Program-made: the position numbers and the translations under genes | The notes under the pieces: model-generated | Databases searched by the model: none | Told to the model about the DNA's origin: nothing | What the model saw: the letters and a program-made list of their open reading frames with translations, nothing else | Shown here: one piece after another, positions 25,114-36,946 of the stretch | Layout of the letters: the number at the start of each line of letters is the position of its first letter | How positions within the stretch are numbered: the first letter of the stretch is position 1 | From: Candidatus Saccharimonadota bacterium | Lineage (GTDB): Bacteria > Patescibacteriota > Saccharimonadia > Saccharimonadales > UBA4665 | Direction of reading: 5' to 3' | Length of the DNA: 52,696 nt | NCBI GenBank assembly: GCA_025927415.1 | Contig: JAICLK010000002.1 | Coordinates: forward strand, 1-52,696

Positions 25114-27720
25114 CTATTTTCGCTTTCGGGCTTTGGTTTTGCGCTGGCGCTCGGCTTTGCGTGCTTTTTTGCGCTTGTCTTCGGCTTGTTTTTTGACCTG
25201 TTGTTCCACTTTCTTGGGTTTGAAATCGGTTTCCTCGAACTCATCCAAATCTTCGTTGATGCGATCGACATTGTCGACAGAGTTGCGCGCGGCCAGCGTC
25301 AGCTCTGTTTCAATTGGACGCTCTAGCTGTGCAGGGTCAACCGGTTCGGCGTGGAAAAGTGCACGCACGATGTCGTGACGCAACGTAAGTTGCATTTCAT
25401 CAAATAACCGCTGGCCTTGGCGACGGTACTCTACCAATGGATCCTGCTGGCCGACGCTCATCCAGTGAATACCCTCTCGCAGATGGTCCATGTTTTCGAG
25501 GTGCTGCATCCAAAGGTTGTCGAGAATTTGCAGATAGACGTCACGTTCCACTTTGCGCATAATTTCGGACGTAAACGCTTCTTCGCGGCCAGCGTACAGT
25601 TCGCGGGCTCCAGTAAGTAGTCCTCCTTCGAATTTGTCGGTGGTGGTGTCGAACAAGCGGTCGAGTGTTTTCTCGTCGAACGGAAATACTTCGCGAATAA
25701 CGTCTTCAAATTGGTCGGTTGTCGCCAGCGGCGAACCCGCCAAGGCGCGCACTTCGTCCTCTACAAACAGCTTGATACGCTTGCTGATATCCTGCGATTT
25801 CAATATTTCGCGGCGCATGGCGTACACGGCCTTGCGGTGACGGTTCATCACGTCGTCGTACTGCACCACGTTTTTACGCTGGTCGAAGTGAAAGCCTTCT
25901 ACCTTTTTCTGTGCGCTTTCAAGGCTCTTGGAGATAATGCGGTTTTCGATGGGCGTTTCATCGTCAACTTTCAGACGCTCCATGATACTGCCGATACGGT
26001 CGCCACCGAAAATACGCATAAGGTCATCTTCGGTGCTCACGAAGAATTGCGTCACACCCGGATCGCCCTGACGACCGGAACGACCACGCAGCTGGTTGTC
26101 TACGCGGCGACTTTCGTGTCGCTCGCTACCCAACACGAACAAGCCACCCAGGTCTTTTATTCCCTGGCCGAGCACGATATCTGTACCACGGCCGGCAATG
26201 TTAGTTGCTAGCGTTACGGCACCTTTTTCGCCTGCTTTGGCAACAATGGCGGCCTCGCGTTCGTTGTTCTTGGCGTTCAACATTTGGTGCGGCACACCAG
26301 CTTTGGTAAGTGCCGTGCTCAACTCCTCGTTTTTCGCAATCGACGCGGTACCCAGCAACACTGGCTGGCCTTTGGCGTACAGCATTTTTACTTCTTTTAC
26401 GATGGCGCGAAACTTGCCGGCTTCGGTTTTGTAAATTCGGTCCGGACGGTCGTTACGCACAATTTTGCGGTTCGGCGGAATTTCCACCACATCTAGTTTG
26501 TAAATTTGGTGAAACTCTTCACTTTCGGTTAGCGCGGTACCGGTCATGCCGGACAGCTTCTCATACAAACGGAAGTAGTTCTGGAACGAAATGGTCGCTA
26601 GCGTCATGCTTTCTTGCTGCACTTCTACGCCTTCTTTGGCTTCGATGGCCTGGTGCAAACCTTCGTTGTAGCGCCGTCCTGCCAGCAAACGGCCGGTATG
26701 TTCGTCCACAATTACCACTTCGCCATCTTTCGTCACCACGTAATCTTTGTCGCGTTTAAAGAGTGCGTGCGCTTTTAGTGCCTGCTGCAAATGGTAAATA
26801 GTGCGGATGTTGCCGCCGGCGTACAGGTTTTCGATGCCCAAAATTTTCTCGACTTTGTCGGTGCCGTCGTCGGTGAGGATTACCGTTTTACGTTTCTCGT
26901 CGGTCTCGTAATCCTTGTCTTTGGTAAGCTGGCGAACTACCTTTGAGTACTGCGAATAGGCGTTGCCAGGCGTAACGCTTGGTGCGGAAATAATCAGTGG
27001 TGTGCGAGCTTCATCGATAAGAATCGAGTCCACCTCGTCGACGATAGCAAAGTTGAGATCGCGCTGGCGCAGCTGGTCTTCCTCGCGCACCATGTTGTCG
27101 CGCAGGTAATCGAACCCAAACTCGTTGTTGGTCCCATACGTAATGTCAGCCTCGTACGCTTCGCGGCGACTGCACGGCTTGAGGTGTCGCATGCGTGGGT
27201 CATCGTGATCTTTGTTCGTGAATTCTGGATCATAAATGTACGAATGATCAGGCAAAATTACACCGCTGCTAAGGCCCAAAAAGTGATAGACCTGCGCCAT
27301 CCAACCAGCGTCACGCTGTGCCAGATAGTCGTTAACGGTGACGACGTGCACGCCCTTTTCGCTCAGAGCGTTGAGGTACACCGGCAGCGTAGCCACAAGC
27401 GTCTTACCTTCACCGGTTTTCATTTCGGCTACGTTGCCTTCATGCAGTACCATGCCGCCGATCAACTGCACGTCATAGTGACGCTGGCCGAGCGACCGTG
27501 TAGCAGCTTCGCGAACCACTGCAAACGCATCGGGCAAAATAGCATCCAAGCTCTCTTTGCCTAAACGCTTTTTGAGCACAGCAGTTTGCTCGCGCAATTT
27601 TGCGTCGGACAATTTTTCATACTTTGGCGCGAGCTTGTTTACTTCCGCCACGCGCTTGCGCAAACGCTTGATAGTTTTGGCCTGCGGATCACCTAGAACT
27701 TTTTTGAAAACGGTATGCAT
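25114..27720 (-). CDS. secA: Preprotein translocase subunit SecA
   Basis: GGMVLHEGNVAEMKTGEGKTLVATLPVYLNAL; YGTNNEFGFDYLRDNM; DEVDSILIDEARTPLIIS; GRGTDIVLGQG. C-terminus is basic with no zinc-binding SecB motif. Confidence 0.98.
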   Translation of the reverse strand: MHTVFKKVLGDPQAKTIKRLRKRVAEVNKLAPKYEKLSDAKLREQTAVLKKRLGKESLDAILPDAFAVVREAATRSLGQRHYDVQLIGGMVLHEGNVAEMKTGEGKTLVATLPVYLNALSEKGVHVVTVNDYLAQRDAGWMAQVYHFLGLSSGVILPDHSYIYDPEFTNKDHDDPRMRHLKPCSRREAYEADITYGTNNEFGFDYLRDNMVREEDQLRQRDLNFAIVDEVDSILIDEARTPLIISAPSVTPGNAYSQYSKVVRQLTKDKDYETDEKRKTVILTDDGTDKVEKILGIENLYAGGNIRTIYHLQQALKAHALFKRDKDYVVTKDGEVVIVDEHTGRLLAGRRYNEGLHQAIEAKEGVEVQQESMTLATISFQNYFRLYEKLSGMTGTALTESEEFHQIYKLDVVEIPPNRKIVRNDRPDRIYKTEAGKFRAIVKEVKMLYAKGQPVLLGTASIAKNEELSTALTKAGVPHQMLNAKNNEREAAIVAKAGEKGAVTLATNIAGRGTDIVLGQGIKDLGGLFVLGSERHESRRVDNQLRGRSGRQGDPGVTQFFVSTEDDLMRIFGGDRIGSIMERLKVDDETPIENRIISKSLESAQKKVEGFHFDQRKNVVQYDDVMNRHRKAVYAMRREILKSQDISKRIKLFVEDEVRALAGSPLATTDQFEDVIREVFPFDEKTLDRLFDTTTDKFEGGLLTGARELYAGREEAFTSEIMRKVERDVYLQILDNLWMQHLENMDHLREGIHWMSVGQQDPLVEYRRQGQRLFDEMQLTLRHDIVRALFHAEPVDPAQLERPIETELTLAARNSVDNVDRINEDLDEFEETDFKPKKVEQQVKKQAEDKRKKARKAERQRKTKARKRK

Positions 27721-27809
27721 ACTAAAAATTATCCCTCTTTTGCCACCCGAAGTATTTGTATCTATTGTACCCGGTTACGCGACAAAACGCGAACGGCTTC
27801 GCCAACTTT

Positions 27810-28175
27810 TCAGGCAGCCTGGCGCTTCACGCGCGCGATAAGTCGCTGATGCAGTTTTGGATTGTCGTGCAGCTCGTTATATTTTTTGAGCCGATACCTC
27901 ATTTTTGCTTCGACAATATCTACGGCGGCATAGAGATTAAGCGTTGCCTCTTCGACCCGCAACACTTCGTGGGGCAAGTGCAAAATTATCTCGCAAGCAA
28001 ACGATGCTTTATTACCTTTTGATTCTTTTCTCTTGAGCAACACTTCCGCGTGCGCGCTTTTACGGGCGTGGTACGACATGTAGCTATCGAGTTTGCCGAT
28101 CTTTTTGGTGACATACCGCTGTAGCTTTTCGTCGACATTCACATGCACGCCGCTGATTTCGAGTTTTTGAATCAT
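27810..28175 (-). CDS. hpf: HPF/RaiA-family ribosome-associated protein
   Basis: MIQKLEISGVHVNVDEKLQRYVTKKIGKLDSYMSYHARKSAHAEVLLK...; AGGAGG SD upstream. Confidence 0.88.
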   Translation of the reverse strand: MIQKLEISGVHVNVDEKLQRYVTKKIGKLDSYMSYHARKSAHAEVLLKRKESKGNKASFACEIILHLPHEVLRVEEATLNLYAAVDIVEAKMRYRLKKYNELHDNPKLHQRLIARVKRQAA

Positions 28176-28236
28176 GTCTCCTCCTGGTAATTTTTTGGTC
28201 AAATAGACGGCGACCTACCATCTATCCCTCTATTTA

Positions 28237-29547
28237 TTATAGCTCTGATTGTCCACCCATGTATGGGCGAAGTACTTCTGGCACGATAATATGGCCGTCA
28301 TGAGTTTGGTAATTTTCCATGATTGCCTTGAGGGTGCGACCGAGCGCAAACGCCGTGGCGTCGTTGGTGTGAACGAGCTCCACTTCGCCGCCGCCGCGAC
28401 GCACACGCACTTTGAGGTCGCGCGCCTGATAGTCGGTCATGTAGTCGGCGGTATGGGTTTCGCGGTACTTGCCCTGGCCCGGGAACCAGCAATCGATGTC
28501 GATACCGCGCGCATTCGGCTTGCCGATGTCCGCTGTGCATTTTTGAATCACACGGTACGGTAGCCCAAGCTGCTGCACTAAATATTCTTGAATGGCCACC
28601 AATAACAAATGCTCATCTACGCCGGTTTCTGCCGTGCTGAACACTTCCATTTCCAGTTTGTCGAACTGGTGCATGCGGAAGATGCCTTCGGCGTCCTTGC
28701 CATATGTGCCAGCTTCGCGGCGGAAGCTGGTGCTGTAACCGATGTAGCGGATGGGCAGCATATCTTCCGGCAAGATTTCGTTCCAATACATCGTGCACAG
28801 GGTGTGCTCGGCACTGGCGTTCAGCCATAAATCATCTTCCGGCTGGCCGGCGCGGTACGTTACCTCTTCGGCATTCAAGCGCGCACTGGCAACATACGGT
28901 TCGGTGCGCAGCATGGCTGGCGGCAAAACTGGCGTGAATGGCTTGGCTACAAGGTTTAAATTATTTTCCTGGATGAGCTTCTCGAGCACTTTTTCGTCGC
29001 CCAGCGTTTGCAGCACGAACTGCACGATGGCGAACTGTAGCTTTACCAAATCGCCTTTAAGGTATGCAAAACGGCTGCCGGCAATTTTGGCGGCGCGTTC
29101 TTTGTCGATAAGGTTTTTCGGCTCGGCCAATTCCCACTCGTGCTTTGGTTTAAATTCAAATTCTTTCGGTTCGCCAACGGTTTTGGCAACCACGTTTTCA
29201 TCTTCGGTCGCACCGACTGGCACGTCATCCAGCGGCATATTTGGCACAGTTCGCAGCAACTTATCAAGCTGCTCTTCCACACCACCCAATTGCTCCTCAG
29301 CTTGCGAGAGTTCCATCTTTAAGAGCTGGCCTTGCTTGATGAGCGCTTCATCTGGCTTGCCGCCAGCGTTCTTTACTTTTGCGGCATTTTCGTTACGTTG
29401 TTGGCGCAGCGCCTCGATGCCCGGAATAAGATTCCGGCGCTCTTCGTCTAGCTGCAACAGCTGCGACACGTCAACAATGTAACCCTTTTGCTTGGACTTC
29501 TCTGCCACAGCCTCAGGATTGTCTCGAATAAATTGAATATCTATCAT
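28237..29547 (-). CDS. serS: Seryl-tRNA synthetase
   Basis: MIDIQFIRDNPEAVAEKSKQKG...TSFRREAGTYGKDAEGIFRMHQFDKLEMEVFS; ATG at 29547. Confidence 0.97.
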   Translation of the reverse strand: MIDIQFIRDNPEAVAEKSKQKGYIVDVSQLLQLDEERRNLIPGIEALRQQRNENAAKVKNAGGKPDEALIKQGQLLKMELSQAEEQLGGVEEQLDKLLRTVPNMPLDDVPVGATEDENVVAKTVGEPKEFEFKPKHEWELAEPKNLIDKERAAKIAGSRFAYLKGDLVKLQFAIVQFVLQTLGDEKVLEKLIQENNLNLVAKPFTPVLPPAMLRTEPYVASARLNAEEVTYRAGQPEDDLWLNASAEHTLCTMYWNEILPEDMLPIRYIGYSTSFRREAGTYGKDAEGIFRMHQFDKLEMEVFSTAETGVDEHLLLVAIQEYLVQQLGLPYRVIQKCTADIGKPNARGIDIDCWFPGQGKYRETHTADYMTDYQARDLKVRVRRGGGEVELVHTNDATAFALGRTLKAIMENYQTHDGHIIVPEVLRPYMGGQSEL

Positions 29548-29561
29548 TGTCAATAATTATA

Positions 29562-30362
29562 TCAGTTATTTTTTATGGTAGGCTGGAGTTTATCCCGTAA
29601 GGCCTGCATGGTGAGTTCGGTGCGCGCGCGGGCGTAGGTGCAAAATTCGCACGGGCCGCCCATGATGGAGTCGCCGACTGGTGGCATTTCGCCGTCCATG
29701 CAAGCTTTCATTGCCGCAACAGTCGGCTCAATCCAATCGGCGTTGCCTTTGTACGGAATGAGTTTGGTTTTGAACTCTACACGGTTATTGAAGCCGTCCA
29801 AATCCATGCGACCGTTGGCGTACACGAAGTATGCCATGTCGCTCACCAGCAGGTCGTTTTTGCGCAGCAGCCACTGGTATACCTCCACTTGACGTTTGTA
29901 GCTGATTTGCCAGCCGCTGTCGATGCTCACCTCTTTATCTTTGGCCGTTGCTTTGTAATCCACCACCATGAGCTCGCCCGTTACATCGTCAATCCATACA
30001 TCGTCAATACCCCCAAACACCAGGAGGTTGGTCGGCTCGTGCAGATGTTGGATTCCGACAAACGTTTCGCGCCAATCATCCAGTTTTGCGTGGCTGTACG
30101 GAATGGCCTTTAGCCCATTTTCCACCATGATCGGATGTGGCGCTTTTTTGGCACGGTAGACATCGAACTCTTTTTTAAATAGCTCGTCGATAGCTTTGTT
30201 AATGTTGAACGGCGGACTGTTTGGCCGCGTAATCTTCAACCGAGCATCCAGCCAAAAACAGCGCGGGCACTGTTTGAACAACTCTATTTTGCTGCGGCTG
30301 ATTTTGAACGCCGTTTTTTGGCCAGGCTTGTACGGCTGGCTGCGCTCCCTCCAATAATTCAT
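29562..30362 (-). CDS. PD-(D/E)XK nuclease superfamily (RecB/Cas4-like) protein
   Basis: SRSKIELFKQCPRCFWLDARLKI; GIDDVWIDDVTGELMVVDYKATAKD; KRQVEVYQWLLRKN; CEFCTYARAR. No CRISPR array or other cas gene seen. Confidence 0.8.
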   Translation of the reverse strand: MNYWRERSQPYKPGQKTAFKISRSKIELFKQCPRCFWLDARLKITRPNSPPFNINKAIDELFKKEFDVYRAKKAPHPIMVENGLKAIPYSHAKLDDWRETFVGIQHLHEPTNLLVFGGIDDVWIDDVTGELMVVDYKATAKDKEVSIDSGWQISYKRQVEVYQWLLRKNDLLVSDMAYFVYANGRMDLDGFNNRVEFKTKLIPYKGNADWIEPTVAAMKACMDGEMPPVGDSIMGGPCEFCTYARARTELTMQALRDKLQPTIKNN

Positions 30363-30448: not shown

Positions 30449-31075
30449 TTAGAGCTTGCGAAGAATTTTTAACAGCTCTTCCGGGTCGTGCGCAATGGCT
30501 ACTGGATGCTGCACTTTCAGCCGCTCCTCGCTGTTGTAGCCCCATGTCACCGCCACGGCTAGCACCCCGACTTTGTGTGCGGCCTTCAGGTCGCCAGCTT
30601 CGTCACCAATATATACACAATCTTCGGGCTTCAGGTTGTTACGGCGTAGCATCTTGCGCAAACCGTGCGCTTTGCCCAAGATGCTGGCATCGCCCTGCAT
30701 GTCGGTAAAGTATTGGTCAAGATCATTTCCCTCAAGAAACAGGCGGATGTTTTTCTTACGATTGGAGCTCAGCGCAAAGAAATTTTTATCGCCCTCTTTG
30801 TGCAAGCTCTGCAAGAGCTTGTCGATACCCGCAAACGGCTTTATCTCGGTAATGTGTTCGCCCATGGCTTTGCGCCCGTCAATAAACAACGACAAGAATC
30901 GCCGCTTAGGAATGCGCAACTCTTTTGCCATGCCGCGCATCGACATGCCGCTTAAGGTTTGGCTCAGCCCCGGCGTCATTTCCCGACCTGCCTTCTCGGC
31001 CAAAAAGGATGTAACAAAATCAAAGCTGTTGGCGAGCGTTCCGTCAAAGTCCCAAATGATTGTCCGCTTGGTCAT
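30449..31075 (-). CDS. HAD-family hydrolase (phosphoglycolate phosphatase-like)
   Basis: TIIWDFDGTLANSFDFV; FFALSSNRKKNI; KAHGLRKMLRRNNLKPEDCVYIGDEAGDLKAAHKVGVLAVAVTWG. Confidence 0.93.
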   Translation of the reverse strand: MTKRTIIWDFDGTLANSFDFVTSFLAEKAGREMTPGLSQTLSGMSMRGMAKELRIPKRRFLSLFIDGRKAMGEHITEIKPFAGIDKLLQSLHKEGDKNFFALSSNRKKNIRLFLEGNDLDQYFTDMQGDASILGKAHGLRKMLRRNNLKPEDCVYIGDEAGDLKAAHKVGVLAVAVTWGYNSEERLKVQHPVAIAHDPEELLKILRKL

Positions 31076-31082
31076 TACTCAC

Positions 31083-31895
31083 TCACGGCCGTAAGCTGCC
31101 GGCAAATATTTGCCAAGCGAATGCTGATTCCATCACAAAAATCAAAATCAGATAGACAAACTCGGCGTGCATATAGTCTGCCCAGTGACCGAGCTTTCGC
31201 ATACTAACGCAAGCGTTCGCTACAATGAGCAGCATTAACACAAAGACACTACCGATAAGCCACGTAACATGCGCCGGCACACCGGCACCATATAGGTGAT
31301 CACTTACCGCATATATTACCACCGCCAGCCACGGCAATGCGCCCGCAAGGCAACTTATGGCACACGTCACCCAGTGTGACAACTGGCTGGCCTGATTTTG
31401 CGTTTCCATAATGATACCAAGCAAGCTACTCACCGCCATCAAACCAAATAGTAGTATGAGTGTCGAGACATCTTGCACGCCCACCAGCATGCCAATAGCC
31501 ACTAACGCCAAGCCGCCGACCAGCGCCAATTCGATCCAGCGAATTACATTTTGACTTTTCTTCAAATTCTTTTCGTAAAATCCGCGCAGTTTTGTTGCCA
31601 CGAGTACATGGGTAACTGCCGAAACCAGTAATACGGCCGCCACAACGTACGCCAAATTCAGATCAAACAGATTACGGGTGCCCAGGGCCAACACAGTGTG
31701 GCCTTGCGCCTGTGATAACAGCGTGTCCACACCCAGAAAGTTCGTCGTGACCATAAAGGGTCGATTGGCGCTTAAAATGAGGATGGCAATAGCTTGCAAC
31801 GCGAACAGCCCACCGAGCCACAGGTTCAGACGACGCATGGTTTCAACCTTTATTTTTTTGCGGGGCTTTTCGGTAAAAATTGTAAGCACACTCAT
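31083..31895 (-). CDS. Heliorhodopsin homologue lacking the canonical TM7 retinal-binding lysine
   Basis: 270 aa, about 7 TM. Heliorhodopsin-like motifs: KSQNVIRWIELAL (TM3 counterion Glu retained), SCLAGALPWLAVVIYAV, KLGHWADYMHAEFVYLILIFVMESAFAWQIFAGSLRP; the Lys of the AKSALAWQ(V/I)F motif is Glu (codon 31130-31128 = GAA). Confidence 0.88.
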   Translation of the reverse strand: MSVLTIFTEKPRKKIKVETMRRLNLWLGGLFALQAIAILILSANRPFMVTTNFLGVDTLLSQAQGHTVLALGTRNLFDLNLAYVVAAVLLVSAVTHVLVATKLRGFYEKNLKKSQNVIRWIELALVGGLALVAIGMLVGVQDVSTLILLFGLMAVSSLLGIIMETQNQASQLSHWVTCAISCLAGALPWLAVVIYAVSDHLYGAGVPAHVTWLIGSVFVLMLLIVANACVSMRKLGHWADYMHAEFVYLILIFVMESAFAWQIFAGSLRP

Positions 31896-31942: not shown

Positions 31943-32632
31943 TTACTCGCAGGTGGTGTTGTTCTGCGGTACGCTGAGCCATCCAGACTCAAGCGATACG
32001 GCACCCGTAACATGGAGACGGAACTGATACGTCGATACGCCATCACCCGAGAAATTCAAGAGCATTTGGGAATTGTCCGATGGAATAGTGATAGTCGTGT
32101 CGCCGGTGGCGATGTTTGTCACGGTAGCCGATTGCTGCGTATCAGTAGTGGTACCATTGTTTGCCGCCTGTACTTCCCAATACCAACTTATGGCACCGGC
32201 CGTTGTCACTGCGCTCCGAAAAGTAATTTGTGCAGACTTCAAGGTATACAATGGCTGGCCGGATGCTTGCGTGCATGCAGTGATTTGGCCAGGGCTGAAT
32301 GCCAACTGTGGCGCAGGCGTCTGGCCTGTAGGCATTGGCGCCGGCATTATCACCGGTTTGTTTCTGCCCTGTTTCGGCTGAACGCTTTTTGGAGTGGTTG
32401 GCGAATTACCATTCAGCATAGAGAGCGGCGAAGAAGTCGCAGCGTTGTGCGTAATGCTCGCAAGTGTTTGTTTTGCACCCTCCGACGAGTGTACAAGTGG
32501 ACCAGCATCAACATGGCTTGCAACCACAAGAATAGCGACGCCCAGCGCCACCGCGCCAACAGCTACCAAGCTGATAGTTCGTCGAAGGCCCTTCCAGGCA
32601 TTCATGAACAAGATACTAAAAAGCCGCTTCAC
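31943..32632 (-). CDS. Membrane-anchored/secreted hypothetical protein
   Basis: N-terminal TM (ISLVAVGAVALGVAILVVASHV), Pro/Thr-rich linker, beta-rich C-terminus; GTG start. Confidence 0.7.
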   Translation of the reverse strand: MKRLFSILFMNAWKGLRRTISLVAVGAVALGVAILVVASHVDAGPLVHSSEGAKQTLASITHNAATSSPLSMLNGNSPTTPKSVQPKQGRNKPVIMPAPMPTGQTPAPQLAFSPGQITACTQASGQPLYTLKSAQITFRSAVTTAGAISWYWEVQAANNGTTTDTQQSATVTNIATGDTTITIPSDNSQMLLNFSGDGVSTYQFRLHVTGAVSLESGWLSVPQNNTTCE

Positions 32633-32718: not shown

Positions 32719-33021
32719 TTACTCCTCTACGGTCACATCACGCCAAAAAGCAACGTAATTACTGAAGTCTTTCTTCACAATGTCGATAGCCGAGGGCTTT
32801 GGCTTGGGATAACTCCAAGCGCTGTCTTTGCTCCAATTTTCGCCTTCGCCCACGTCAAAGTATTGGCACACGCCCTTCCATGGGCAGGTGTAGGGCGTCG
32901 GGCTTTCACGTAAGAAAGCCTTCTGCACGCTTGATGGTGGGAAATACCAATTCTGCTCGATATAAATCACATCATCTTTTGTTGCCTCGGCGATAACTTT
33001 GCCATTCCAAATTGCTTTCAT
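32719..33021 (-). CDS. DUF427 family protein
   Basis: MKAIWNGKVIAEATKDDVIYIEQNWYFPPSSVQKAFLRESPTPYTCPWKGVCQYFDV; start at 33021. Confidence 0.9.
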   Translation of the reverse strand: MKAIWNGKVIAEATKDDVIYIEQNWYFPPSSVQKAFLRESPTPYTCPWKGVCQYFDVGEGENWSKDSAWSYPKPKPSAIDIVKKDFSNYVAFWRDVTVEE

Positions 33022-33040
33022 TTGAACTCCTTTTAATTTC

Positions 33041-33475
33041 TTACCAGAGCCAGCGCCAGCGCGCCACATTACGGCGCCACCATGCGCCAATACTTAAAAC
33101 TTGGTGCGGATAGCCAAAGAAAATTATCCACAACAGGACAATGTATACAAGATAGCCGCCAGTGCGCATAGGTGTCATGCCTGACAGCGATTTAGCCCAT
33201 GCCAGCGCTAATAATAGACTGCCGACGGCAGTGACGAGACGTACTAGTATGCCGAGAACCATGGCCGCTCCAATGACGGCACAAAACCACACGGCAGGTG
33301 CTCGCCAATCATGAAAGCGGGTGCGCTCGTTGAAGAATATCCACAAAAAAATAGCGCCCAAGATGAAACGTGCAGCCGCAATGGCATACCAAACACCAAT
33401 GTCTGATGCAGTTTGGTTCGATTTTGTCCGTGTCATATGCATATCTATTATGGCGCACGGATGTTCAAACAACAA
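33041..33475 (-). CDS. DoxX-like small integral membrane protein
   Basis: AAARFILGAIFLWIFFNE...WFCAVIGAAMVLGILVRLVTAVGSLLLALAWAKSLSG...; exact start uncertain (33475 or MHMTRT at 33442). Confidence 0.65.
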   Translation of the reverse strand: MLFEHPCAIIDMHMTRTKSNQTASDIGVWYAIAAARFILGAIFLWIFFNERTRFHDWRAPAVWFCAVIGAAMVLGILVRLVTAVGSLLLALAWAKSLSGMTPMRTGGYLVYIVLLWIIFFGYPHQVLSIGAWWRRNVARWRWLW

Positions 33476-33477
33476 GC

Positions 33478-35016
33478 TTATGAAGCTTTGGGCGCGTCCA
33501 ACTTGAGTTCGGGATATATCACCTTGGTACCTTCGTCTATGTCTTGGCGAAGCTGTGGAAATGGCACGCCTTCGCGAGCTGTTACGCCTTCCAGCAACCA
33601 GAACAAACGCTCGCTATGGCCATAACCGCAGGCGGGCGGCATGCCGTACTCCAGCATTTCGACAAAGTCGATGTCGAGCATCATAGCTTCGGCGTCGCCA
33701 GCATTACGCATCTCTTGCTGCTCTACAAAACGGCCAAGCTGATCCACTGGATCGTTCAGCTCGCTGTAAGCTTTGCTTGCCTCGGTACCACCAAGTAACA
33801 GGTTGAATTGCTCGGTGAGTCGATGGTCATTCGGCTGCAGTTTTGCTAGCGGCTGCAAAAAGGTTGGAATATCTACGAGAAATGCCGGACCGGCGATTTC
33901 CACGCGAATTTTCTTCCAAAGCTTGTCGATGACACGCGAACGGTTGTCGATCTTCTCTACCTCGCCGCCAATTTTCTTGAGCTGCTCAACCGCATCTTCT
34001 AGGGTGCAATCGAACACATCCAGGCCATAGCGCTCGCGGATAACGTCCACGAAACTCACGCGCGGCCAGTTTTCGCCGTCGTTGCCAAAGTCCACCGCTT
34101 GCCCATTCGCCAGCTTGAACTGGCGCGTGCCCCACGTTTTGTCGACGGTAGCGCGCACCATTTCTTGCGTAAATTGCATGCCTTGTTCCCAGTCGGCGTA
34201 TGCCCAGTACCATTCCATTGCCACGTGCTCGGGCAAATGCTCGTCGGAGTAATTTTCGTTTCGGAAGCGCGGACCGATGTCGAAAACTTTTTCGTAACCG
34301 GCGCCGATGAGTCGCTTCAGCGGCAGCTCGTGACTAATACGCAGGTAAAAATCCTGATCCAGCGCGTCCATGTGCGTGACAAACGGGTTGGCGTCGGCAC
34401 CGCCGGTAGTGTGTTCGAGCACCGGAATGTTGATTTCAATAAATCCGTGGTCGATGAGATACTGACGCGTGGCTTGCCAAAAGTTGCTGCGGCGAATAAA
34501 ACGCTCGTACACCTCGCGGTTGACGTTCATGTCGATGTAACGGCGACGCAGACGCTCTTCTTTGTTGGTGAAACTTTCATGCGTCGTCGGCATGGGCCGC
34601 AGACTCTTCGTGAGCAAACGCAGACGCTCCACGCCCACTGAAATTTCGCCGGTTTGGGTTTTAATAACTTTGCCGTGTACTTCAACAAAATCCCCACTGT
34701 CGAGGAGTGGCAATTGCTCCATGCCGAGCTGGCTGTTAGCAGCGTCCAACCCTGCAACTTCGCCCTCCCGGAAAAACAACTGCACAGTGCCACTGGCATC
34801 ACGGATAGATACAAACGCAATTTTGCCAAAGCGGCGAATATTCATGATACGCCCAACCACGCTCACCGCTTGATTTTCGAGTTCACCAAATTTTTCGGTA
34901 ACGTCAGCCAACATATGACTGCGCTCGACATGTGCCGGATATGGGTCAACACCTAGCTTTTTCAGGTCTTCCAGTTTGCGAACGCGCTCGTTGCGATAGT
35001 CTTTTAGTGTTGCCAT
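33478..35016 (-). CDS. lysS: Lysyl-tRNA synthetase (class II)
   Basis: RLRRRYIDMNVNREVYERFIRRSNFWQATRQYLIDHGFIEINIPVLEHTTGGADANPFVTHMDALDQDFYLRISHELPLKRLIGAGYEKVFDIGPRFRNE. ATG at 35016, 7 nt after TATAAT; extended ORF start at 35154 rejected. Confidence 0.97.
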   Translation of the reverse strand: MATLKDYRNERVRKLEDLKKLGVDPYPAHVERSHMLADVTEKFGELENQAVSVVGRIMNIRRFGKIAFVSIRDASGTVQLFFREGEVAGLDAANSQLGMEQLPLLDSGDFVEVHGKVIKTQTGEISVGVERLRLLTKSLRPMPTTHESFTNKEERLRRRYIDMNVNREVYERFIRRSNFWQATRQYLIDHGFIEINIPVLEHTTGGADANPFVTHMDALDQDFYLRISHELPLKRLIGAGYEKVFDIGPRFRNENYSDEHLPEHVAMEWYWAYADWEQGMQFTQEMVRATVDKTWGTRQFKLANGQAVDFGNDGENWPRVSFVDVIRERYGLDVFDCTLEDAVEQLKKIGGEVEKIDNRSRVIDKLWKKIRVEIAGPAFLVDIPTFLQPLAKLQPNDHRLTEQFNLLLGGTEASKAYSELNDPVDQLGRFVEQQEMRNAGDAEAMMLDIDFVEMLEYGMPPACGYGHSERLFWLLEGVTAREGVPFPQLRQDIDEGTKVIYPELKLDAPKAS

Positions 35017-35053
35017 TGCCAAAATTATAACAGATTGAGAAAACTTTCGAGCA

Positions 35054-35177
35054 GACAACCTCAGCAGAATGATGCAGTGTGGTTGAAATGCGAGCACCGT
35101 AAAGGAGCCGTACTTACGGTACGGAGCGTGCGGAGCGCAGCAGTTCGGCCGCAATGCGCCGTTCTGCTGAGGTTGTC
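35054..35177. repeat. Long hairpin, copy B of a two-copy family
   Basis: Perfect 16-bp arms gacaacctcagcagaa (35054-35069) and ttctgctgaggttgtc (35162-35177). The 90-nt core 35071-35160 starts GATGCAGTG and ends GCAATGCGCC, as in copy A. Confidence 0.85.
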
Positions 35178-35639
35178 CTAAGAAACTTCGACGATTTTGT
35201 ATGTAGCGGTTTCAGCTGGCGTTTTGATTTCTACTTCTTCGCCAACTTTTTTGCCCAGCAACGCTTTGCCAATCGGCGATTCATCGGAGATCTTGCCATT
35301 CAACGGGTCAGCTTCAACGGTTCCAACCACTTGGAATTCTTTGGTTTTGCCATCGTTTCCCAGCTTCACGCTACTGCCAAGCACCACTTTGCCGGCACTC
35401 TTCGGCGCCTTGATAAGCTCTACGTTTTGCAAGATATGCTCAATTTCAGCAATACGCGCCTCGTTCTTGTCCTGCTCCTGGCGGGCAGATTGGTATTCAG
35501 AATTCTCTGCCAAGTCGCCGAGTTCGCGCGCAGTTTTAATACGATCGGTTACGGCGGCGCGCTGACTAACCAAGTTCTTCAACTCGGCCTCAAGTTCAGT
35601 CACGCCAGCTTTGGTCAAACGAAATTGTTTGCTTATCAT
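35178..35639 (-). CDS. greA: Transcription elongation factor GreA
   Basis: LTKAGVTELEAELKNLVSQRAAVTDRIKTARELGDLAENSEYQSARQEQDKNEARIAEIEHILQNVEL; AAGGAG SD. Confidence 0.97.
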   Translation of the reverse strand: MISKQFRLTKAGVTELEAELKNLVSQRAAVTDRIKTARELGDLAENSEYQSARQEQDKNEARIAEIEHILQNVELIKAPKSAGKVVLGSSVKLGNDGKTKEFQVVGTVEADPLNGKISDESPIGKALLGKKVGEEVEIKTPAETATYKIVEVS

Positions 35640-35695
35640 ATGTTTCTCCTTTTCAGCAGCACCTGATTGGCACTCGTACGCATACGCCCACGAGC

Positions 35696-36946
35696 TTATG
35701 CGAACAGCTTCATCAAATTTTCTTTGTCTAGAAGTTGCGAGTCGGATTTGTCACGTGCCTTAACTTCAAACTTGTTTTCGGCAATCGTCCTGCTACTTAC
35801 CACTACCCTGTACGGGATGCCCATGAGATCGGCGTCGGCGAACTTCTCGCCAGGACGTTCGTCACGGTCATCATATAGTACCGCAACACCATTTTCAGTC
35901 AAGTCATTATAGAGTTTATCCGCAGCTTTTGTTACGTCAGCGTCGTTGCCGAGGCGGGCCAGGTACACGTTGGCTGGCGCCACAGCAGCCGGCCACACAA
36001 TGCCCTTATCATCGGCGAAATGCTCAGCAATCATACCCATGAGACGGCTTATGCCAATGCCGTAGCAGCCCATGACAATCGATTGTTGATGGCCGGTTTC
36101 GTCCGCGTAATACAAACCCAGCGCGTCGGAATACTTGCTCTCCAGCGGGAAAATGTTTCCTACTTCCACCCCGCGCTTTTCGACCAGCTCTTCCCGCTTG
36201 AGGCCGAGTTTGGCGAGATTTTCATCCGTGAAGATTTCTTTGTTCACGGCAATTTTTTTGCCTTCGTGCACATAAATGGTATCTTCGCCGACATCGCTGA
36301 GGGTTTGGAACTCATCACTAAAACGCGTGGTAAAAATGCCACCGTCGGCATAGGTGCGATAGGTAATGCCGCCCAAGCCTAAACGGTCGTACACCTTAGC
36401 GTAGGCCAGCGCTGCCTTTTCATACAGCTCGTCGTGCTCTTGCTGGCTGCGCGCAAACGAGTACATGTCTTTCATGATGAACTCGCGGCCGCGCAAAAGA
36501 CCACTCTTGGCGCGCAGCTCATTACGGAACTTGGTTTGAATCTGATATGCATAAATTGGCAAGTCTTTGTACGAGTTCACGAAAGCCTGGAGTATGTCGA
36601 CAATCGGCTCTTCATGCGTGAGGCCAAGCCCAAGCTCGGTGCCATTTTTCAACTTGGTTTTAAACCAGTTGTCTACTTTCGCATCGTCCCAACGATCGGT
36701 TTTCTCGAACAACTCTTGCGGCTGGAGCGCTGTCAGCATTACCTCTTGGCCGCCGATGGCATTCATTTCCTCACGCACAATTTGCTTGATGTTTTCGAGC
36801 ACGCGCAAACCCAGCGGCAAATACGCATAGACGCCGGCCATTTCTTTATGTACAAAACCAGCCTGGATAAGCAGCTTAGCGTTTTTGGACGTCTCGCCCG
36901 CAGGTTCGGTTCTGCTCGTTTTGGTGAATAGTGAGCTCATCCTCAT
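35696..36946 (-). CDS. proS: Prolyl-tRNA synthetase (short bacterial form)
   Basis: LLIQAGFVHKEMAGVYAYLPLGLRVLENIKQIVREEMNAIGGQEVMLTALQP; RGREFIMKDMYSFARSQQEHDELY; VMGCYGIGISRLMGMIAE. Confidence 0.96.
   Translation of the reverse strand: MRMSSLFTKTSRTEPAGETSKNAKLLIQAGFVHKEMAGVYAYLPLGLRVLENIKQIVREEMNAIGGQEVMLTALQPQELFEKTDRWDDAKVDNWFKTKLKNGTELGLGLTHEEPIVDILQAFVNSYKDLPIYAYQIQTKFRNELRAKSGLLRGREFIMKDMYSFARSQQEHDELYEKAALAYAKVYDRLGLGGITYRTYADGGIFTTRFSDEFQTLSDVGEDTIYVHEGKKIAVNKEIFTDENLAKLGLKREELVEKRGVEVGNIFPLESKYSDALGLYYADETGHQQSIVMGCYGIGISRLMGMIAEHFADDKGIVWPAAVAPANVYLARLGNDADVTKAADKLYNDLTENGVAVLYDDRDERPGEKFADADLMGIPYRVVVSSRTIAENKFEVKARDKSDSQLLDKENLMKLFA

Follow-up and report, generated by a model that had tools for sequence, protein, structure and literature searches.

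P0001, a protein encoded in the 52,696-nucleotide stretch of Candidatus Saccharimonadota DNA analysed here (the window), is a heliorhodopsin homologue in which glutamate occupies the position of the Schiff-base lysine. We estimate at roughly 0.7 the probability that it is a retinal-free heliorhodopsin that arose by recurrent loss in place and whose gene has been kept for a light-independent role. The retinal-free part of this reading is well supported, the absence of retinal itself being deduced from the residues present; continued function, partner and ligand we infer.

P0001 is a heliorhodopsin homologue

The P0001 gene occupies positions 31083..31895 on the minus strand, runs from ATG to stop with no internal stops, and encodes 270 amino acids with seven transmembrane (TM) helices and a Lys-rich N terminus. 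Its assignment to the heliorhodopsins in the original prediction was borne out by profile searches and by the fold. The protein matches Pfam PF18761 Heliorhodopsin over residues 20-268 (8.1e-54, 183 bits against a cut-off of 26.7) and NCBIfam NF038020 HeR (1.7e-51, 175.1 bits against a cut-off of 100). Archaeal TaHeR (6is6), the best solved relative, was aligned by phmmer at 1.6e-41; identity is about 33% to TaHeR and 43% to the nearest relatives. An AlphaFold (AF2) model built with 12 relatives (pLDDT 82.6, pTM 0.81) was matched by Foldseek to TaHeR 7u55 (E 9.1e-17, TM 0.83/0.91) and to heliorhodopsin structures including bacterial 48C12 (9e-17 to 9e-12), whereas the best type-1 rhodopsin reached only 1.7e-3. 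The model agrees with the family originally named; the retinal pocket was judged by residue mapping. With type-1 structures at only E ~2e-3 and no Bac_rhodopsin match in the Pfam search, P0001 as a type-1 opsin-related protein (ORP) was ruled out. The N terminus of heliorhodopsins lies on the cytoplasmic side, and the Lys/Arg-rich N terminus and B-C loop in the P0001 sequence fit this N-in arrangement by the positive-inside rule.

Loss of the Schiff-base lysine and of pocket residues

In the phmmer alignment Glu256 sits gap-free on the lysine of the TaHeR segment VAKSALAWQ (K238). The residue map places it at codon GAA, 31128..31130 (minus strand), confirming the glutamate predicted for this TM7 position. 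Sequence matches, gap-free TM7 alignment and fold therefore firmly establish both the family and the site of the lysine. The SxxxK motif with the retinal lysine is absent from TM7, which reads I252...E256: Ile252 (codon ATT, 31140..31142, minus strand) stands in place of the SxxxK serine (TaHeR S234). By the definition that demands the SxxxK lysine, P0001 does not count as a functional heliorhodopsin, although it is a homologue and positional orthologue of heliorhodopsins.

The Schiff-base cavity of heliorhodopsins contains H23, H82, S78, E108 and R105/E227, with a Q26/W243 network (PMC9385722, PMC10238734). Pocket residues have been named for AbHeR as Y106, F204, F207, Q211, S109 and S235 (PMC9529153), from which we mapped the pocket set Y109, F203, F206, M210, S112 and S234 in TaHeR numbers. 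In P0001 the cavity histidine H23 is replaced by Phe31 (codon TTC, 31803..31805, minus strand), and the further losses are Y109 to L123, S112 to V126, F203 to M221, F206 to I224, M210 to A228, S234 to I252 and K238 to E256. The TM3 counterion glutamate E108 (Glu122, codon GAA, 31530..31532, minus strand) and the TM2 histidine H82 (H96) are kept, as had been predicted. So are S78 (S92), R105/E227 (R119/E245) and Q26/W243 (Q34/W261), as well as N102, W106, E150, P174, W175, W220, Y223 and Y230 (TaHeR numbering).

We compared these losses with the rest of a conserved set of 42 columns at >=95% in 88 canonical rows, split into 10 cavity/pocket columns and 32 others. P0001 is changed at 7 of the 10 near-invariant cavity/pocket positions (H23F, Y109L, S112V, F203M, F206I, S234I, K238E) against 10 of the 32 others, a modest difference (one-sided Fisher p 0.036). 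Eight other lysine-less rows had lost 53/72 cavity/pocket cells against 108/255 others (p 2e-6, with cells that are not independent). M116, M142, G167 and A237, among the ten lost 'others', may also line the pocket. The lysines of P0001 are K10, K13, K14, K16, K102, K109, K112, K113 and K234, none of them in a predicted helix core; therefore the protein has no alternative Schiff-base lysine. With the lysine, the SxxxK serine, H23, S112 and three pocket aromatics all lost, the retinal-free state first suggested from the glutamate alone is supported.

Lysine-less orthologues in Saccharimonadales

Heliorhodopsin homologues were detected in 113 of 393 genomes of the order Saccharimonadales. Across 107 heliorhodopsin-proper rows the lysine position is Lys in 92, not covered in 4, and another residue in 11. 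One row (L135) was too divergent to trust and was left out of the lysine-less count; ten genomes remain. The position reads Glu in G000 (the source genome of P0001) and G028, Ala in G011 and G004, Val in G063 and G184, Leu in G133, Ser in G147, Gln in G022, where the gene is split over two contig ends, and Trp in G019. The loss is not confined to P0001, with lysine-less orthologues in nine other Saccharimonadales genomes. The counterion is lost in all nine (G, T, V, S, Q or N), and P0001 alone keeps Glu.

Other Patescibacteria gave 49 heliorhodopsins with a legible site, every one of which has Lys. A few rows of this control stem from broken genes or from Saccharimonadales itself, and, as the query was canonical, the control leans towards canonical sequences. 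When P0001 was the only query, DNA pattern scans of genome contigs and viral contigs revealed no close relatives. An alignment query gave 13 named loci in genome contigs, mostly of Saccharibacteria, and no relatives in viral contigs.

The survey also revealed several unusual rows. G019 has, besides its lysine-less (Trp) gene at the conserved locus (L045/L153), a lysine-bearing 48C12-type heliorhodopsin elsewhere (L043). The reverse case is L016 (G068; also L164:4001-4780, JANWIN010000006.1), in which Lys is kept, the counterion Glu is replaced by Thr and pocket residues are lost. A very divergent heliorhodopsin-like Saccharimonadales clade of 23 rows (support 98) comprises L039, L044, L048, L049, L052, L054, L055, L058, L059, L061-L065, L127, L133, L136-L139, L141, L144 and L145; in these proteins the counterion position is often Asp and the lysine position Lys, Arg, Gln or Leu. 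Because several of its rows (L048, L055, L058, L062) adjoin the same PDDEXK/SerS anchors as described below, they may be positional orthologues too. L166 (CAJCIR010000062.1), titled 'Chlamydiae bacterium', carries the heliorhodopsin locus of Saccharimonadales and matches genome G022; its name or its binning appears to be wrong. In other Patescibacteria, the heliorhodopsin genes L286 (G670) and L287 (G500) look frame-broken, with Lys still read at the retinal site; decay here goes via frameshift, unlike the open lysine-less genes.

The lysine-less genes share a conserved locus

In the window the genes of this housekeeping cluster stand in the order ProS, GreA, LysS, a membrane-type protein, DUF427, an exported-type protein, heliorhodopsin, HAD, PDDEXK, SerS, HPF and SecA. 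A HAD-superfamily phosphatase gene (30449..31075, minus strand; Pfam HAD_2 3.5e-25) lies 7 bp downstream of the heliorhodopsin gene and is followed by a conserved locus anchor, a PD-(D/E)XK nuclease-like protein (29562..30362, minus strand; Pfam PDDEXK_1 6e-12). The downstream side of the locus continues with SerS, an HPF-like S30AE protein and SecA (25114..29553, minus strand). On the other side, 47 bp upstream of the heliorhodopsin start, is the gene of a 229-aa protein with one N-terminal hydrophobic segment (31943..32632, minus strand), for which we found neither a Pfam match nor a relative near the heliorhodopsin genes of related genomes. The upstream side consists of DUF427, a 144-aa membrane-type protein, a class II Lys-type tRNA synthetase, GreA and ProS (32719..36946, minus strand), the names LysS and ProS being based on sequence similarity and context.

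ProS/GreA and PDDEXK/SerS/HPF/SecA flank the heliorhodopsin gene, with local variations, both in the window and in the lysine-bearing G034. Both anchor sets also flank the lysine-less genes of G011, G004, G063, G028, G022 and G019; the downstream anchors are present in G147, while the flanks of G184 and G133 were read over a short distance only. This common order indicates that the lysine-less genes are positional orthologues rather than a separate paralogue family. In 12 lysine-bearing and 5 lysine-less rows the next gene after heliorhodopsin, in the same orientation, is a HAD gene. The two need not go together, since HAD genes persist in genomes where heliorhodopsin is gone. G016, G023, G039 and G005, for example, keep HAD-PDDEXK with no heliorhodopsin-like ORF in the upstream stretch that was read. 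In those genomes of the family that lack a heliorhodopsin match, no hidden, extremely divergent copy was seen ahead of the HAD gene.

The lysine was probably lost more than once

On a SecA species tree of 30 genomes the ten lysine-less ones are scattered and require a minimum of 10 changes. Constraining them to one clade was strongly disfavoured (dlnL 351, p 4.8e-63); a single ancient loss is thus rejected on this tree, provided that inheritance was vertical. In the heliorhodopsin gene tree of all rows, 8 of the 9 lysine-less rows used fall outside the main canonical clade (100/97). This grouping speaks against repeated loss; we attribute it to long branches and regard a single ancient lysine-less lineage with gene replacement as less likely. 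When rows were added singly, L030 (Val) joined the lysine rows of its own family (98/99), and P0001, L014 and L122 were compatible with those of theirs (p 0.41, 0.28 and 0.32). In the gene tree L098 (Ser) is nested among canonical lysine rows of its own family, and L102 (Leu) and the lysine-keeping L016 are sisters. Independent loss is well supported for at least three families (f6, f11 and f37), and ten losses would be the reading if inheritance was vertical.

Weighing the alternatives

That the lysine codon is wrong through faulty sequencing, assembly or binning, the caveat attached to the original prediction along with a recent mutation, hardly seems credible. GAA is one transition from AAA, and the source genome, a MAG-like assembly in 51 contigs, is 76% complete; yet a single-base error cannot explain the change, because P0001 carries many independent pocket substitutions and nine other genomes are without the lysine. 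The contig also has consistent housekeeping genes. The coordinated losses, the ~57% divergence from the nearest lysine-bearing relatives and the nine other lysine-less genomes answer the recent-mutation caveat as well. It is also quite improbable that retinal, another carotenoid or an aldehyde is bound non-covalently or via another residue and that light is still sensed, the other possibility raised at the outset. The heliorhodopsin fold and the counterion are kept, and, according to work cited in PMC4915679, lysine-less type-1 and bovine rhodopsins can work with aminated retinylidene compounds. Against such binding, Y109, F203, F206, S112, S234 and M210 are all replaced, pocket aromatics among them, and no other lysine lies in the membrane core. 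No type-1 rhodopsin or Blh-type retinal enzyme was matched in the source genome, but control genomes gave none either, so this does not count as an absence.

The main rival is a relaxed photoreceptor in decay, whose lysine and pocket would drift, with no light or retinal, before the gene is deleted, and which gains no new function. We regard this as unlikely, although lysine loss could be a step towards gene loss: a heliorhodopsin match was found in only 24 of 93 genomes of P0001's family, several genomes keep the HAD-PDDEXK neighbours with no heliorhodopsin-like ORF upstream, and the lysine-less rows lie on long branches. All ten lysine-less genes are nevertheless open, with 0 internal stops (that of G022 being cut by contig ends). 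When neutral drift was simulated until P0001 had 0.92 non-synonymous changes per codon, 7 stops arose on average and 0 of 200 runs stayed stop-free; therefore selection kept the reading frame over most of the branch. This refers to the branch as a whole, not necessarily to the time after the lysine was lost, and a search of the families to which G147 and G063 belong gave no sister lysine-less species for dN/dS. The concentration of losses in pocket columns, with other invariant columns holding better, also speaks against decay.

Proposed mechanism

A retained, retinal-free P0001 would descend from a heliorhodopsin that had the lysine, was photoactive and lay at the same place in the chromosome. 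Its Schiff-base lysine and pocket would have been lost in place, repeatedly and independently in Saccharimonadales, and the gene retained owing to a light-independent role of the seven-helix protein. Most likely this role would be that of a membrane-bound regulator or scaffold acting through the retained cytoplasmic-side network (R119/E245, W120, E164, W238, Y241, Y248 and Q34/W261), with the HAD phosphatase encoded by the neighbouring gene as a plausible target. The former Schiff-base cavity of P0001 would have two carboxylates, E122 and E256, near H96; this trio could act as a proton sensor, or hold a small cation where the protonated Schiff base would otherwise be. A more tentative proposal, which we would put at somewhat less than even odds, is that Saccharimonadales heliorhodopsins have a light-independent core function, such as membrane regulation of a cytoplasmic enzyme, to which light sensing is an optional, repeatedly lost layer, and that E122/E256/H96 forms a new proton or cation site in P0001.

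If the gene does survive repeated loss of the chromophore site, part of the heliorhodopsin job cannot need light, and the surviving residues point to where that part is done. The lysine-less members would then offer natural 'light-off' versions for studying what heliorhodopsins do independently of photochemistry. The same lysine loss in about nine related species suggests that the receptor family can do a light-free job in these bacteria.

Comparison with known rhodopsins

No report of a lysine-less type-3 rhodopsin was found among open-access published papers. One survey counted only proteins with the TM7 lysine as bona fide rhodopsins (PMC9601134) and another checked candidates for SxxxK (PMC9166423); because of such filtering, lysine-less heliorhodopsins would have been set aside. 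With the present group, lysine loss would be known in all three rhodopsin types.

Among type-3 proteins, TaHeR (6is6) and 48C12 (6su3) share with P0001 the fold, full-length homology, R105/E227, Q26/W243, E108, H82 and the extracellular A-B hairpin. P0001 differs in having no Schiff-base lysine, SxxxK serine or H23, and in its replaced pocket aromatics. The haloarchaeal ORPs, of type 1, have likewise replaced the lysine and lost the pocket while keeping other functional residues, and were proposed to be non-light sensors (PMC4915679). They form one monophyletic clade and often lie beside HAMP/MCP transducers (PMC4915679), whereas the P0001 group is type 3, with scattered losses and no transducer gene among the immediate neighbours. 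In freshwater FArhodopsins and Rh-noK, also type 1, the lysine is reported as Q, T, L or R (PMC10308929; Yamauchi 2019 cited there), and FArhodopsins are suspected to be retinal-less (PMC10308929). Marine FArhodopsins and Rh-noK are described in PMC10308929 as paralogues accompanying a normal proteorhodopsin; a lysine-less type-3 gene, in contrast, is a positional orthologue and usually the only heliorhodopsin found in its genome. Animal gluopsins (type 2) have the same Lys-to-Glu replacement at the retinal site as P0001 (PMC9368030), but they belong to an unrelated GPCR family and form a single clade, mainly of insects (PMC9368030). AbHeR binds and regulates, in a light-dependent manner, a soluble glutamine synthetase encoded next door (PMC9529153). 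The neighbour of P0001 is instead a HAD phosphatase, for which a partner role is proposed by analogy, and the AbHeR-glutamine synthetase pair would provide the model for P0001 acting on the product of its neighbouring gene.
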